A stretch of 64,000 nucleotides of DNA from Dysgonamonadaceae bacterium. Its GTDB lineage: Bacteria; Bacteroidota; Bacteroidia; Bacteroidales; Azobacteroidaceae. This document shows positions 1,479 to 64,000 of the stretch, piece by piece (within the stretch, counting starts at the first letter, position 1; each line of letters opens with the position of its first letter). Both the position numbers and the translations under genes were made by a program. The notes under the pieces were generated by a model, which saw only the letters and a list, made by a program, of their open reading frames with translations, ran no database searches and was not told the origin of the DNA. The DNA is taken from contig JAISUK010000009.1 in NCBI GenBank assembly GCA_031272075.1, positions 1-64,000 on the forward strand, given 5' to 3'.

Positions 1479-1543
1479 ATGAAACGAGCATGATTTTCAA
1501 ACATCCAAATTGAGGACAATAATGATATGCGAGTTCCATACGA
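1479..1543 (+). repeat. Leader repeat copy A (91% identical to 49723-49787)
   Basis: Direct comparison: 59/65 identical bases; sits between the GH42-like stop and the next ATG at 1564. Confidence 0.85.
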
Positions 1544-1563
1544 ACTAAAAAAAATATTGACGT

Positions 1564-2106
1564 ATGAAAAATTACAATCGTCGTGAATTTATCAAAGCTG
1601 CCGGTCTGCTGTATGGAAGTTTGTTGATTATTCCGTCATGCAAGCCGCTCTCCGGAAACAACTACCTGGTCTTTACGGAACAAGAAGCAGCATGCCTGAT
1701 TGCGTTATGCGAGCAAATCATCCCGGCAGATGAATTTCCGGGAGCCACGGATGCCGGCGTCATTCATTTCATCGACAAACAATCGAAACTTCGTTTCCCC
1801 AAAGAACAAATCTTGTTCAAAAACGGCATCGCTTCGTTGCAAGCCTGGTGTCGAGCGACGCACAACCGATTGTTTGAAGAATTGGATGTTCCTACGCAAA
1901 TCGCCATTATGCAATCCATGGAAAAAGACGAAATAAAATCCGACCTGTGGAAAATTGCTCCAAAAGATTTTTTTAACAAACTGCTGGCTCGAACCATGCA
2001 AGGATTTTACGGTTCTCCACGCCATGGAGGAAACAAAGATTATGTCAGTTTCAAAATGTTGAAATTGGATTATCCGTTGTTGATAGGGCAAAACAGGTAC
2101 TTGTAA
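1564..2106 (+). CDS. Gluconate 2-dehydrogenase subunit 3-type protein, TAT/lipoprotein signal
   Basis: N-terminus MKNYNRREFIKAAGLLYGSLLIIPSC (twin-Arg plus lipobox-like Cys); LCEQIIPADEFPGATDAGVIHFID is typical of Gluconate_2-dh3. Confidence 0.85.
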   Translation: MKNYNRREFIKAAGLLYGSLLIIPSCKPLSGNNYLVFTEQEAACLIALCEQIIPADEFPGATDAGVIHFIDKQSKLRFPKEQILFKNGIASLQAWCRATHNRLFEELDVPTQIAIMQSMEKDEIKSDLWKIAPKDFFNKLLARTMQGFYGSPRHGGNKDYVSFKMLKLDYPLLIGQNRYL

Positions 2107-29429: not shown

Positions 29430-30968
29430 CTATTCCGGCTTAGCGACGTAAGAAGTATTATCCGGCGAAAGCCCCCAATCGGGATTCAACGTAATGATAC
29501 CGTTGTCGATAGGAACGTTGAAATACTGGTCGTTGACCGGCGCAGAATAGGTTTTGTCACCTATGGTATGCGTGATGGTTGTTTTTGACCAGGGTTTTCC
29601 CGTATCGAGCGTATACCGTTTGATGTCCACGGTGCGTAAAAATGATTCAAAAGGCTGTTCCAGTCGCCGTTCTTTCAGGATTTCCACGAGCAATTGGTCG
29701 GCATTGAGCGAAGCGCCGTTCGTTAAGTCTGTTGAAGAGGCGTTGTCATAGCGGTATTTCCTCAAAAGATTCAGGTCGGCGAGTGCACTGGCCGGTTGTC
29801 CATTGCGGGCATAGGCTTCGGCGCGCATAAGCAGCAAGTCTGGATACGAAAGACCTTCATTGTAAATCAGTTTCGATCCGCGATAATTAAATTTCCTGAT
29901 TCCATCATTTCCCCAACCGTTATAGTTCAAGATAAAAAGTTTAAACCTCAGGTCATTTTTTGTATCAAACAATGAAAGGAAATCGTCCGAAACATAGTGA
30001 TTTTGACCTGTTACCGGGCTTACCCTGTACAACAGACTTTCGCGATTGTAAGCCTGACGGAAATTCAGGTCGCCGCCTTTATGCCGCAGATTCCAATAAT
30101 ATGCAGAGTCAATTCCTTCAGCCACAGTGACCGTTGTTTTGCTGTATTCAAAATCATTGAAATTATATATCAGATTGTCAACGCTGCCTTCCAGATTCAA
30201 AGCCAGGTTCCACGCCTCATCGGCATACTTGAGCATATTTTGCCAGTCGCGTTTGAACATGTAATACTGAGCATGCAGGGCTAACACCGCCGTTTTTCCT
30301 GCACGAGTGGGATTCCCTACCATTTCCGGAGCATCAAGCGCAGCGGTCAGATCCTGAAGCAGGAAATCGTAAATTTCGGCCACGGTATGCAAAGGAGGAT
30401 TGGGGGCAAGCGGAGATTCGGCTGTACGGTACGGAATCACTTTTTGATCGTTTGCTCCTGCCGGATTGTAGGGAGGACCATATACAAGCACCTGTTGCAA
30501 GTATTGCCATGCCCGTCCTGCTTTGGCTTCAGCAATCACTTCTTTGGCATGGTCGCTGTTTTTTTCGGCAGCCGAAAGATTGTCAATTCCTGCAATAACA
30601 TTGTTGAAATAACTGATCGCCCGATAGTTGTATGTCCAGAAATACTGTGCTGACACCGGATTGGAATAGGGCAGAGCGAAAATATAAGCGTGATAACGGT
30701 TGATGTTGGGATGCGTCGCATAATAAAGCGTTTCCGACAATCCCGTATCGAAAGTAATATTATCACCTAATAAAGCATAAAAACAGCCGCGGTTATTATC
30801 GAGAAAAAGATAATCATAAGTGTTAGAGTTATTCAGAAGATTTTCAAGTTCTACCACTTTCGTAGGAATCAGTTTACCTACCGGATCAACATCGAGAAAA
30901 TCCTGACAGGAGGTCTGAAACAGGATCAGACAAACCGCAATTATACTCGTTAATTTATTTGTTTTCAT
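29430..30968 (-). CDS. SusD/RagB-family lipoprotein
   Basis: LFQTSCQDFLDVDPVGKLIP; LSYPDLLLMRAEAYARNGQP; ILKERRLEQPFESFLRTVDIKRY. Confidence 0.95.
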   Translation of the reverse strand: MKTNKLTSIIAVCLILFQTSCQDFLDVDPVGKLIPTKVVELENLLNNSNTYDYLFLDNNRGCFYALLGDNITFDTGLSETLYYATHPNINRYHAYIFALPYSNPVSAQYFWTYNYRAISYFNNVIAGIDNLSAAEKNSDHAKEVIAEAKAGRAWQYLQQVLVYGPPYNPAGANDQKVIPYRTAESPLAPNPPLHTVAEIYDFLLQDLTAALDAPEMVGNPTRAGKTAVLALHAQYYMFKRDWQNMLKYADEAWNLALNLEGSVDNLIYNFNDFEYSKTTVTVAEGIDSAYYWNLRHKGGDLNFRQAYNRESLLYRVSPVTGQNHYVSDDFLSLFDTKNDLRFKLFILNYNGWGNDGIRKFNYRGSKLIYNEGLSYPDLLLMRAEAYARNGQPASALADLNLLRKYRYDNASSTDLTNGASLNADQLLVEILKERRLEQPFESFLRTVDIKRYTLDTGKPWSKTTITHTIGDKTYSAPVNDQYFNVPIDNGIITLNPDWGLSPDNTSYVAKPE

Positions 30969-30985
30969 ACGTCAATAATTTGTTT

Positions 30986-49722: not shown

Positions 49723-49794
49723 ATGAAACGAGCAAGATTTTCAAACATCCAAGGTGATGACAACAATGACATGCGAGTTCCATACGACCAATGA
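49723..49794 (+). CDS. Short leader ORF, 23 aa (MKRARFSNIQGDDNNDMRVPYDQ); leader repeat copy B
   Basis: ATG with cacgtATGAAA context, TGA stop 18 nt before the susC ATG; 91% identical over 65 nt to 1479-1543. Confidence 0.5.
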   Translation: MKRARFSNIQGDDNNDMRVPYDQ

Positions 49795-49812
49795 AAAACA
49801 AATTATTGACGT

Positions 49813-52800
49813 ATGAAAAAAATCTTTTTTGTAATTACATTGTTCTGCTTGGTTGTAGCTCATATTCAAGCAGAAGTGAAAACCACGGAGTCCGTACAGC
49901 AGCGCGAAGTGACAATTAGGGGCGTAGTGACGGATTCTTCCGGAGAACCCATCATTGGTGCGATCGTAACTGTCAAAGGCACGACTTCTGCTACCATAAC
50001 GGATGCAGAAGGACAATTCAGTCTGGGGACAAAGGCGGCAAACCCGGAAATTACAGTTGCTTACCTCGGTTACAAGACAGAAACCGTGAGCGTTGTCGGC
50101 AGCGACCCATTAAGTATCGTCCTGATGGAATCCGAGCAGTTGATTGATGAGGTGGTCGTGGTCGGTTACGGCACTCAAAAACGCCTCACAATGACTTCGG
50201 CGGTTGCTTCCGTCAAGGGAGCGGAATTGACCGTATTGCCCGCCCCGCGTCTCTCGACCAATATCGGCGGTAAAGTTGCCGGAGTGATTACCTTTCAGGC
50301 AGATGCAGCGCCGGGCAATGATGGCGCTTCCATTTATGTCCGAGGCTCATCACCCCTGATTTTGGTCGATGGCGTAGAGCGTCCGGGCGATCGGGTTAAT
50401 CAGGAAGATATAGAATCGGTATCAGTCCTGAAAGATGCCGCTGCAGTCGCTCCTTACGGATTGAAAGGCGCTAACGGAGTGATCCTTATCACAACCAAAC
50501 GCGGCTCTGCCGGTAAAATTACAGCTACCTACAAAGGCGAGTTGAGTTCACAAAAACCGATGAGTATCCCTGAATTTATGGGTTCAGCAGATTATTTTGA
50601 ATTTCGCAATAAAGCATTGGAAATGGACGGTCTGACGGAGCAAATGATGCCTGCCGAAGAAATAGCCTTGTACCGCGACGGCACTGACCCGGATCGTTAC
50701 CCCAACACCGACTGGATAGGAAATTATATGAAAACATCCAAAGCCACGAAACACAATGTCACCATTTCCGGCGGTACGGACAAGATTCAGGCGTTCGTTT
50801 CTTTGGGCTATGTTTTCCAAAACAGTATGTTCGGCGGACAGGATTATCGCCGTTATACCGTGCGCTCCAATGTCGATATTCAGGCGACATCTACCACGAA
50901 AGTCTCATTGGATAATTCTTTCATGAGGGATATTTTAAGTATGAGCGGACTGGGGGCAAGCCAAATTATGGAGCGCCTCTACCGCGCCGTTCCCGAAGAA
51001 CCTGATGTTTACAGCAATGGACTTTCGGCATTCCAATCTTCTCTTGGAATCAGTATGCACGAAGCGATGTACAATCGCGGCATATACGACGAACAGAACG
51101 AAATCTCGACATCGAACATTACCGTCGAACAGCAATTGCCTTTTGTCCAGGGACTCTCGGCAAAAATAGCCTTCAATTACGATAAACAGCACAAGGATTT
51201 GAAAAATTGGATATTGCCTTTGTCGTATTATAATCTGACGCCGTCGGGCGAATACGAAAGGATCGATTTGTCGGAAACAAGCAGTCCTACACTGGGACAG
51301 GAATACAAACGCTGGGATTGGTACACTTTCAACGGCAGTTTGAACTACAACCATGTATTCGGCAAGCACGCCATTACCGCTTTGGCGCTCTTTGAAGCGC
51401 GTTGGACGGAATCTTTGACAACCACCACCGGCAAAACGGAATTTGATTTCCTGATTCCGGAACTGGATAGGGGCACTTCCGACAAAGAAAAATGGACAAT
51501 GAGCGGAAATTCCGGCGAAACAGCCCAATGGGGCGCCGTCGGACGTGTCAGTTACAATTACAATCAAAAATATTTGCTGGAACTTGCCGGACGCTACGAT
51601 GAAACATATCTGTATGCACCCGGTAAAAGGGGCGCATTCTTCCCCTCAGCTTCCCTTGGTTGGCGCATTTCTCAAGAACCCTTCATGGCATTTTCTCGCG
51701 GCAGTATCGATAATCTAAAATTACGGTTCTCATACGGAAAATCGGGTAATCCTGTCGGCTCGGCATTCTCATATATGTCGTCTTATACGCCCGCCAACAG
51801 CTATGTCTGGGGAACCGGCAGCACCGAAACCCGCGTGCAAGGCATCTATGCTACATTGGAGGCCAATCCCGATTTGACTTGGGAGACTGTCTGGAAAACC
51901 GATGTGGGGTTCGACCTCAATATGTGGAGAGGCCTCTTTGGGTTGGAATTTGATTTTTATCGCGAAAAACGCAGTGACAAGATTGTAAGCCCTACGGCTG
52001 TGGTTCCTGCGGAATACGGTATCGCCCTGGCACAAGAAAATGCCGGCGAAGATGTTCGTTGGGGTACGGATATCACGCTTACAAACAATACCAAAATTGG
52101 TGAAAATCTAAGGCTTTCCAATTCATTTATTTTTACCTATACCCGCCACCAAATTATCGAGAATCACGAAAATCAAGGTACGCTCTACAATCCCCGACGC
52201 CGTACCACCGGCTTGGCGTCTTCGCAGATTTGGGGATACCGTTCGGCAGGCTTGTTCAAAGATGAAGAAGAAATAAAAAATTGGGCATTTCAAGATGCAA
52301 GTACTTTGCCGGGCGATATAAAATACGTCGACATCAACGGCGACGGCAAAATCGACAGCGAAGATATCGTACGCATCGGACTTTCGAGTATTCCGCAAGT
52401 GATGTGGGGATACAATCTGAAAGCCACCTGGAAAAATTTCGACTTGGCGCTGTTTTTCCAAGGTACAGGTCGTTCAAACTATTATCTTGGAACGGCAGAC
52501 CGCGGCGTCCGTCGTCCATTTGCAGACGGCAAGGCGCGAGTCGATCATTACAAATCCTGGACAACGGATAATCCTGATCCCGATGCGCCCTATCCGCGCT
52601 TGCGTTCGACAAATTTTGCGATGAATTATGTAGCCTCAGATTACTGGGTGATCAATTCTGCATATACAAAACTCAAATCAATAGATATAGGCTATTCAGT
52701 TAATCCCAATTGGATTCGCAAAGTCGGCATGTCAAATCTGCGCCTTTCGGCAAATTTCTACAATGTTTGGACAATTTATACCAATGCTCACAAGGATTTC

Positions 52801-61489: not shown

Positions 61490-62886
61490 TGCGTTTTGCC
61501 TTTTCTGTTCTCTTCCAAAGCTTCGGCAATGTCGGTGATTTTTGTTTCCGATAGTGGATAGAGGGAGATAAAAAATACCGACAGGAGGGTTCCGATAGCC
61601 GGGAGTAGGCTCATCATCAGGCGAATGCCGGTTTTAGCCAATTCGGTCTGCTCCATATTCGGACGAAAGCCGTAAAATCCCAGTATCCAGCCAGCCAATG
61701 CGCCGCCTAGCGCCCAACCGAATTTTTGCGACATTGAAGAGGAAGAAAAAATCAGTCCCGTAGCGCGGCGTCCGGTTTTCCATTCCGAATAGTCGGCAAT
61801 ATCGGCATACATTGACCAGAGCAATGGGAAGATGCTTCCTGCGCATGCGCTGATCAATACTTGCAAAGACATCATCAGCACAATATCGTCTTTACCGAGA
61901 AAAAAGAACAAAATACTGAAGACGGTGGCGAACGCCATCGCCAGGAGATAAGTCCGCTTTTTCCCGATTTTGTTGGAAACAGGGGTGACAAAAAGGATTC
62001 CGATGATGTTGGCCGCTTGTCCCAATACCAGGAAAATGGTGGTCAGAGAAAAAGAACTGCCGATGAATCCCAGGTGTAACGTATCGATGTCTTGTGCAAA
62101 ATATTTGAAGTAATAGGCGGCAGCGCCGTCGCGTATGGAATTGAAAATCAGTGCGGAAACCCCTGCGCCAAGCAGAATCCACCAAGGACGGTTTTTCCAC
62201 AGGTCGCGGATATCTTCGCGAAAACTGTTTTTCCCTTCCTTGAGGGGTTTTACCCGTTCTTTAGTCCAAGAGAAACAACCGATAAAAAAGAGTGCTGCAA
62301 TCAGGGCGAACACCGTCATTGTCAATGTCCAACTGTGTGCAAAATCGATTGTGCTTGCATTATCGGGACTAAAGAAGCGGAGCAGCGGTTCGACGAGGAT
62401 CAAAACCAGAATACTGCCGGCGAAGGCAAAAATCATGCGATATGATGACAGTTCCGTGCGGATTTTGGGGTTCCCGGAAATGACGCCCAACAAAGAAGCA
62501 TAGGGCACATTGATCAGGGAATAGATCATCATCATGAGCGAATAGGTGATGTAGGCATAGCAGATTTTTCCGCTGATGCTTAGATCTGGAGTGGTGAAAG
62601 TCAGGATTCCCATGATGCCGAATGGGACGGCGATCCAGAGGATGTAGGGGCGGAATTTTCCCCAACGGGTTTGCGTTCGGTCGGCAATCACCCCGACCAC
62701 CGGATCGAAAAACGTATCCCATACCCTGGTAATCAAAAACATGGTTCCGGCCACTGCGGCCGGGATTCCGAATACATCTGTATAGAAGATGAGCAGATAC
62801 ATCCCGAACAATTTCCAGAACATGGAGGAAGCGGCATCTCCCAAGCCATAGCCGATTTTCTCTTTTAGTCGAATTGTGTCTTTCAT
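61486..62886 (-). CDS. GPH-type MFS sugar transporter
   Basis: About 12 hydrophobic segments; RVWDTFFDPVVGVIADRTQTRWGKFRPYILW motif; 4-bp overlap with epimerase gene. Confidence 0.93.
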   Translation of the reverse strand: MKDTIRLKEKIGYGLGDAASSMFWKLFGMYLLIFYTDVFGIPAAVAGTMFLITRVWDTFFDPVVGVIADRTQTRWGKFRPYILWIAVPFGIMGILTFTTPDLSISGKICYAYITYSLMMMIYSLINVPYASLLGVISGNPKIRTELSSYRMIFAFAGSILVLILVEPLLRFFSPDNASTIDFAHSWTLTMTVFALIAALFFIGCFSWTKERVKPLKEGKNSFREDIRDLWKNRPWWILLGAGVSALIFNSIRDGAAAYYFKYFAQDIDTLHLGFIGSSFSLTTIFLVLGQAANIIGILFVTPVSNKIGKKRTYLLAMAFATVFSILFFFLGKDDIVLMMSLQVLISACAGSIFPLLWSMYADIADYSEWKTGRRATGLIFSSSSMSQKFGWALGGALAGWILGFYGFRPNMEQTELAKTGIRLMMSLLPAIGTLLSVFFISLYPLSETKITDIAEALEENRKGKTQ

Positions 62887-62889
62887 ACG

Positions 62890-64000
62890 TCAATGATTTG
62901 TTGCTTTCAGGAAAGCCTTGTTTTTGTCGATCAATTGGATGATCTGTCGTACCGAAGCCGACGAACGGAGTCCGTCTTTCGGGGTGTTCATGCAATAATC
63001 CACCAATTGCTTGATGGTAGAAGTCGCCACATGCAGCCGGGTGTCGGAAGAAGCATAGTAGATGAATACCCTCCCGTCGTCTGCTATCCATCCATTAGCA
63101 AACAACACATTGGAGACATCTCCGACGCGTTCTTCTTCTACCGACGCCATGAAATAGCCGCCAGGTTCCGCAATCGGCACCGAAGGGTCTTCCAGTGCGG
63201 TCATATACAAATACAATACATAGCGCAATCCGGCGGCGCAACTGCGTACACCGTGCGCCAGGTGCAGCCAGCCCTTGTCTGTCTTGATGGGCTGGGGGCC
63301 TTCGCCGTTTTTCATCTCCTTGATGGTGTGATAATAGCGTTGGTTAATGATTTTTTCTTCTTTGATTTCGGCATGGCAGATGTCGTCGATCAGCGACCAT
63401 CCGATTCCTCCGCCGTTGCCGGCAACGATAAAGCCGTCTTGCGGACGGGTATACAAGGCATATTTTCCATGGACAAATTCCGGGTGAAGCACCACATTGC
63501 GTTGTTGACTGTGCGCTTTCAGGTCGGGAAGCCGATCCCACCGAATCAGGTCTTTCGTTCGGGCGATTCCGGCCGAGGCGATTGCGGAAGACAAATCTCC
63601 CGGTTCGGCATTCGGATCTCTCTTCTCTACGCAGAAAATGCCGTAGACGTAGCCGTCTTCATGCGCCGTCAGGCGTATGTCGTAAAGGTTCGTTTCTTGA
63701 TCGTCGTTTTCCGGCATGATCACCGGATAGTCCCAAAAACGGAAGTTGTCGATGCCGTTTGGACTTTCGGCGACGGCAAAAAAAGATTTTCGGTCTACAC
63801 CTTCCACACGCGCCATCACCAGGAATTTGTCTTTCCACTTGATAGCGCCGGCGTTCATGGTTGAGTTGCATCCGATTCGTTCCATCTGCAGCGGGTTGGT
63901 TACCGGATTCAGATCATAACGCCATGCAATCGGAACATGTTCGTGGGTCAATATCGGATTTTTGTAACGGGTGAAGACGCCATTGCTTTTTTTAATGGGG
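62890..64000 (-). CDS. GH130 mannosylglucose phosphorylase-like, 5'-truncated by window edge
   Basis: [77 protein letters not shown]. Frame is open to base 64000 ([20 protein letters not shown]). Confidence 0.92.

Follow-up and report, generated by a model that had tools for sequence, protein, structure and literature searches.

A probable new family of short, hairpin-bearing mobile elements that occupies start codons in Bacteroidales genomes

Two look-alike leaders in the window analysed here (a stretch of 64,000 nucleotides from a Dysgonamonadaceae genome) belong to a repeat family with more than 100 members in that genome. It is probably a new family of mobile elements, short, non-autonomous and with hairpins, which settle on start codons and supply a replacement ATG. 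Mobility and target are established on comparative grounds, by copy number, edges, target, orientation, empty sites and the covariation of the right end. In the proposed mechanism, the element would insert in one orientation directly after ATGAA(A), mostly at the first two codons of a gene, and its own right end would be ...CGTATGAAA. The old start codon would then lie at the left end of the insert, the last ATG of the element would become the new start codon, and the gene would acquire an additional leader of ~90 nt. Because the element would bring a new start codon, the gene would keep its frame and its protein, and a gene that is landed in would be kept instead of broken.

The original prediction described a duplicated leader of ~65 bp, and direct reading of both copies returned the 59 of 65 identical bases between positions 1479–1543 and 49723–49787. 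The duplication is real and far above chance, but the unit is longer than 65 bp, as it spans the left ATGAAA through to the gene's own ATGAAA, and the two copies are not a simple pair but two members of the large family in their own genome. Copy A (1479..1569, forward strand) ends with the terminal ATGAAA that starts a Gluconate_2-dh3 gene (ATG at 1564), and copy B (49723..49818, forward strand) with the one that starts susC (ATG at 49813). The downstream genes are unrelated, as had been proposed: PF13618 Gluconate_2-dh3 for copy A and a TonB-dependent receptor with CarboxypepD_reg and Plug domains for copy B. Both copies carry the conserved right arm ATGCGAGTTCCATACGA on the forward strand (1527..1543 in copy A, 49771..49787 in copy B), and in both of them CATACG pairs with CGTATG at the gene start (49781–49786 with 49810–49815 in copy B).

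In the window's own genome (G000; 3.0 Mb, 93% complete), this core 17-mer had 123 matches with up to two mismatches, 65 forward and 58 reverse, while its reversed control had 1. With copy B as query, at least 42 matches with 86–100% identity were obtained in the same genome (40 of 177 candidates scored). From 860 kb of this genome, picked for holding copies, 87 two-ended copies were recovered, with an element length of ~90 bases and the consensus ATGAAACGAGCATG-[variable]-CATGCGAGTTCCATACGACC-[A/T-rich]-TTATTGACGT-ATGAAA-gene, or in letters ATGAAACGAGCATGATTTTCAAACATCCAAGTTGATGACAATAATGACATGCGAGTTCCATACGACCTTTTAAAAACAAATTATTGACGT, followed by ATGAAA and the gene. Copies of the same length are on average 92% identical over their first 69 bases. 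Both edges are sharp. Where the left ATGAAA begins, with its first A, the information content rises from 0.57 to 1.39 bits, and just past the second ATGAAA it falls from 1.43 to 0.49 bits. ATGAAA is thus present at both edges; since the right end reads ATGAAT or ATGAAC in some copies, the segment common to both ends is ATGAA, give or take one base. Terminal inverted repeats are absent (left CGAGCATG..., right ...TTGACGTATGAAA, with ATGAA(A) alone in common), so a DDE-type MITE was rejected. In tandem pairs, the second copy begins at the terminal ATGAAA of the first, and no cargo-bearing long copies were seen.

One of the ideas initially raised for these leaders was a conserved leader peptide or attenuator ORF. 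Copy B can indeed be read as MKRARFSNIQGDDNNDMRVPYDQ*, ending at 49794, 18 nt upstream of the susC ATG, and it and one related subfamily are open over at least 23 codons. Substitutions are also in slight excess at third positions (34/38/58 by codon position, p = 0.02, for copies that are related and not independent). Copy A has the TGA reported at codon 5, and copy B, with AGA there, is an exception in the family: the first stop falls at codon 5 in 68 of the 87 copies from the same genome, the exact TGA is found in 47 of 61 same-length copies, and different subfamilies read identical conserved DNA in different frames. The codon-5 stops and frame changes outweigh the weak third-position excess, so selection on the peptide was rejected and this explanation is now very improbable.

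In the 860 kb sample, 67 of 87 copies end exactly on an ATG that opens a reading frame of 60 aa or longer, another 18 have a gene start within ~200 nt, and all 85 copies with a called gene share the direction of that gene. The remaining two lie at a contig edge and before a short frame below the length cut (MKKIINYIKESAKELVY), which we took for SecE. Occupancy of ATGAAA sites in this sample, in classes that rest on crude gene calling, was 52 of 167 at gene starts (31%), 17 of 243 in intergenic sites (7%) and 6 of 532 in the coding sense (~1%). The deficit within coding sequences can be ascribed to selection, which removes harmful insertions. Selection against harm does not obviously account for the excess at starts over intergenic sites, and 31% vs. 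7% counts against an element that is simply selfish and targets a bare hexamer, for which such a difference would not obviously be predicted. The genes downstream are functionally mixed and include core genes (fabD, aroA, a proC-like gene) as well as polysaccharide-utilisation genes. Genes for proteins with signal peptides often start with ATGAAA, hence susC and susD are frequently hit.

The start of fabD is filled in G000 alone and empty at 29 other loci, three of the same genus among them, where a plain start is found (e.g., ACGAATGAAAGCATTT). At a biotin-carrier gene, G000 and G003 carry insertions of different subfamilies (L059 in G003), and the site is empty in G001, G002 and the other relatives with readable starts; this looks like two independent insertions at the same start codon. 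Since orthologous genes are empty in sister species, the element moves. In the JAUZOX01 records, a minimal copy is nested within another at a non-start site, CGATGAA|AAATC, and this composite recurs at several loci (L105, L106, L118, L120, L151, L154, and L158), from which it follows that the outer ends set the unit that is copied. Among the candidates raised at the outset, a mobile leader cassette placed before operons is therefore well supported, by the number of copies, their sharp ends and the empty sites in orthologous genes, with further copies both in the genome itself and in relatives.

At the filled fabD locus of G000, the promoter-like box GTATTTTTGCAG has been retained ahead of the element with roughly its usual spacing, and the insert should therefore lie, judging by position, within the transcribed leader. 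The gene may still be expressed, from the A-rich tail of the element and its new ATG. Pairing within the element was analysed in 109 representatives less than 90% alike. In the left hairpin the two arms (ATGAAAC-GA-GCATG and CATGC-GA-GTTCCAT) hardly vary, tandem G.A/A.G occurring in 79 representatives, and no covariation was seen in this hairpin among the 109; rare arm variants restore full pairing (CCCGCAT/ATGCGGG in L045, CTCGCATG/CATGCGAG in L072, and CGAGCATG/CATGCTCG in L128). The right end behaves differently. Here the box CATxyG pairs with Cy'x'ATG, the ATG of which is the start codon of the gene, and both variable pairs covary (82 paired vs. a shuffle maximum of 71, and 95 vs. 89, in 1000 shuffles that ignore the kinship of copies), whereas the left flank showed no covariation with the box. 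The combination is CATCCG/CGGATG in G352, G414, G331, and G394, CATATG/CATATG in G117, G222, and G388, and CATCTG/CAGATG in L103, L106, L108, L266, and L376, so that the change of pairing recurs in separate lineages. The box and the partner strand of the left ATGAAAC overlap, which makes the two pairings mutually exclusive.

These features lend partial support to the earlier suggestion of a structured 5'UTR, to which conserved hairpin arms, covariation over the start codon and, for fabD, a box resembling a promoter ahead of the left end all point. They would also fit a cis-regulatory RNA switch that spread by its usefulness, in which more than 100 genes would be controlled by a single trans factor or by ribosomes at the left AUG. 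GUUCCAU would pair with the left AUGAAAC when the gene start is open, and as CAUxyG with the start codon of the gene itself when it is closed, the CAU being common to both pairings, and the preference for starts over intergenic ATGAAA would agree with such a role. Equal covariation would, however, be expected if an enzyme required the right-end hairpin as DNA, the genes downstream are of mixed function, and their orthologues manage without the element. Folds of single-copy RNAs were not consistently more stable than shuffles (the L098 slice was without the element and the L029 slice fell short of the gene start). We regard a switch as rather unlikely; it must moreover also be mobile, and would thus add to the mobile-element explanation and not replace it. 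On the other hand, a pairing over the new start codon looks odd if the element leaves genes expressed. A known structured RNA family was rejected, as searches of six loci against Rfam covariance models gave no match to the element reaching the gathering score, with E-values up to 10.

Under the mobile-element explanation, we consider the chances about even that an enzyme acting in trans recognises the ends in the form of folded single strands (the hairpin and the pairing at the right end), much as in IS200/IS605 and REP elements. Y1_Tnp is present in some carriers and was not found in G000, G001, G388, and G292, all of these being draft MAGs whose incompleteness limits what an absence means. 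Among 50 Y1 loci examined, one (L187) had an element copy, on the 5' side, and none had flanking copies on both sides. In this case (L187 183–720, G002:C210), a Y1 gene bears the element at its own start codon and has the YxxNQxxHH motif, given in PMC6006769 for a subclass 1.2 that occurs in Bacteroidetes and Cyanobacteria and has no known repeats. Similar Y1 genes in other genomes had no copy nearby, and this single case is suggestive, the gene being a candidate mobiliser or the placement due to chance. With Y1_Tnp missing from four carriers and a copy at one of 50 Y1 loci, Y1/RAYT as a general mobiliser is not supported.

Short pieces of the right end also occur on their own. In the window, TTGACGTATGAAA is found at the start of a susD-like gene (30963..30975, reverse strand) and of a transporter gene (62881..62893, reverse strand), both element-free, and we read both as possible scars of lost copies. 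The same sequence is present at 22 of 115 element-free ATGAAA starts in the G000 sample, and within these 860 kb there are 35 occurrences of TTGACGTATG without the element, of which 7 adjoin the left side of a copy. In the other carriers sampled, the tail does not stand out at starts that lack the element. G001 and G002 have no such tail in manC, with the leader length about unchanged. An ancestral translation motif was thus rejected for manC, and from this one set of orthologues it seems that most solo tails are remains of deleted copies, the element-free TTGACGTATGAAA starts being deletion scars. Alternatively, such tails might be truncated copies left by a retroelement-like spread, where a transcribed leader would be reverse transcribed and primed at ATGAAA targets, and the identity of the element's right end with its target would suit this. 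Against it, the tails match the last 7–33 nt alone, lengths between tail and full element were not found, and the manC tail adds no length, a combination that fits deletion better than truncated retro-copies. RVT_1 was missing from the six carriers searched (G000, G352, G292, G414, G331, and G394, where MAG incompleteness limits the absence), and we judge this route improbable.

The family extends well beyond the genome of the window. Within the order Bacteroidales, 21 of 394 genomes contain core matches, with 1 to 222 copies each, and the public records with matches include, among those listed, termite-gut Dysgonamonadaceae MAGs, Paludibacter MAGs, and other Bacteroidota MAGs, as well as Marinilabilia salmonicolor and Parabacteroides sp. 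PF5-9 with one match each. Outside the class, two genomes of the phylum sample matched, G570 with five matches, two of which were read and have the same architecture, and G438 with one. The latter (L374) is nearly identical to the subfamily of G414 (L247–L250), a genome placed in a different class, which may reflect transfer or MAG contamination; the family is present in at least one genome from another class. The middle sequence is specific to each genome, while the arms and the right end are common to all. A longer version of ~140 bp, with extra internal sequence and tandem copies, was observed in G352 (L239–L246), which has 70 core matches. Separately, some copies have their left part adjoined or replaced by another short repeat, ATGCTTACGCCTAAACTTGAACC (L088, L150, L160, and L164; JAUZOX01 and similar records). 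Phage and plasmid collections yielded no match to the element, one exact match in a viral contig having been rejected as the element structure was absent.

Several known systems share parts of this organisation. ERIC, Correia and BOX/RUP elements (with a known pneumococcal example) are short repeats in transcribed leaders that can fold in mRNA, and to our knowledge none of these or similar repeats is tied to the ATG of a gene or supplies a new start codon. The palindromic elements of Rickettsia and Wolbachia are tolerated inside gene boundaries, inserted in frame within coding sequences, whereas the element described here replaces the start instead. RPE families are also discussed in PMC3733652. 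REP elements (GTAG- and CGTC-tagged; RAYT/TnpA_REP) are likewise short, hairpin-forming, non-autonomous and present in many copies per genome (PMC3733652, PMC6006769), and CGTC REP families without a dedicated transposase have been reported (PMC3733652). In contrast to them, the present element is ~90 bp long, with two pairing regions, fixed ends, a fixed target ATGAA(A) and a fixed orientation at start codons; the foot of its hairpin is ATGAAAC in the copies read, with no GTAG/CGTC tag, and neither Y1_Tnp in G000 nor a cognate RAYT flanked by copies was found. IS200/IS605 elements and their non-autonomous derivatives resemble it in lacking terminal inverted repeats, in oriented insertion by a short fixed motif, in subterminal pairing regions and in an element end resembling the target (mechanism in PMC6006769). 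They differ in that the present element is without an internal transposase gene, that Y1_Tnp was not found in several carriers, and that the target pairs here with the far hairpin arm and not with a 5' guide tetranucleotide. Keyword and sequence searches of open-licence papers did not turn up any account of the element; the family is widespread and, to the extent of these searches, undescribed.

The usual way for short mobile repeats to persist is to land between genes. This family seems to survive by taking over start codons and providing the gene with a substitute, and would thus invade a highly conserved spot cheaply. The leaders of more than 100 genes have been rewritten in one species, while its sister species are without insertions at the sites compared. 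The missing mobiliser offers a concrete search for transposition activity, and if the covarying start-codon pairing acts in mRNA, the copies would form a ready-made regulon. We tentatively entertain, at appreciably less than an even chance, that these elements represent a start-codon-specialised mobile class with its own replacement initiation region and mutually exclusive RNA pairing over the new start codon, moved by something other than a recognised host Y1 enzyme or reverse transcriptase; if so, every insertion would put a gene under a common translational leader.
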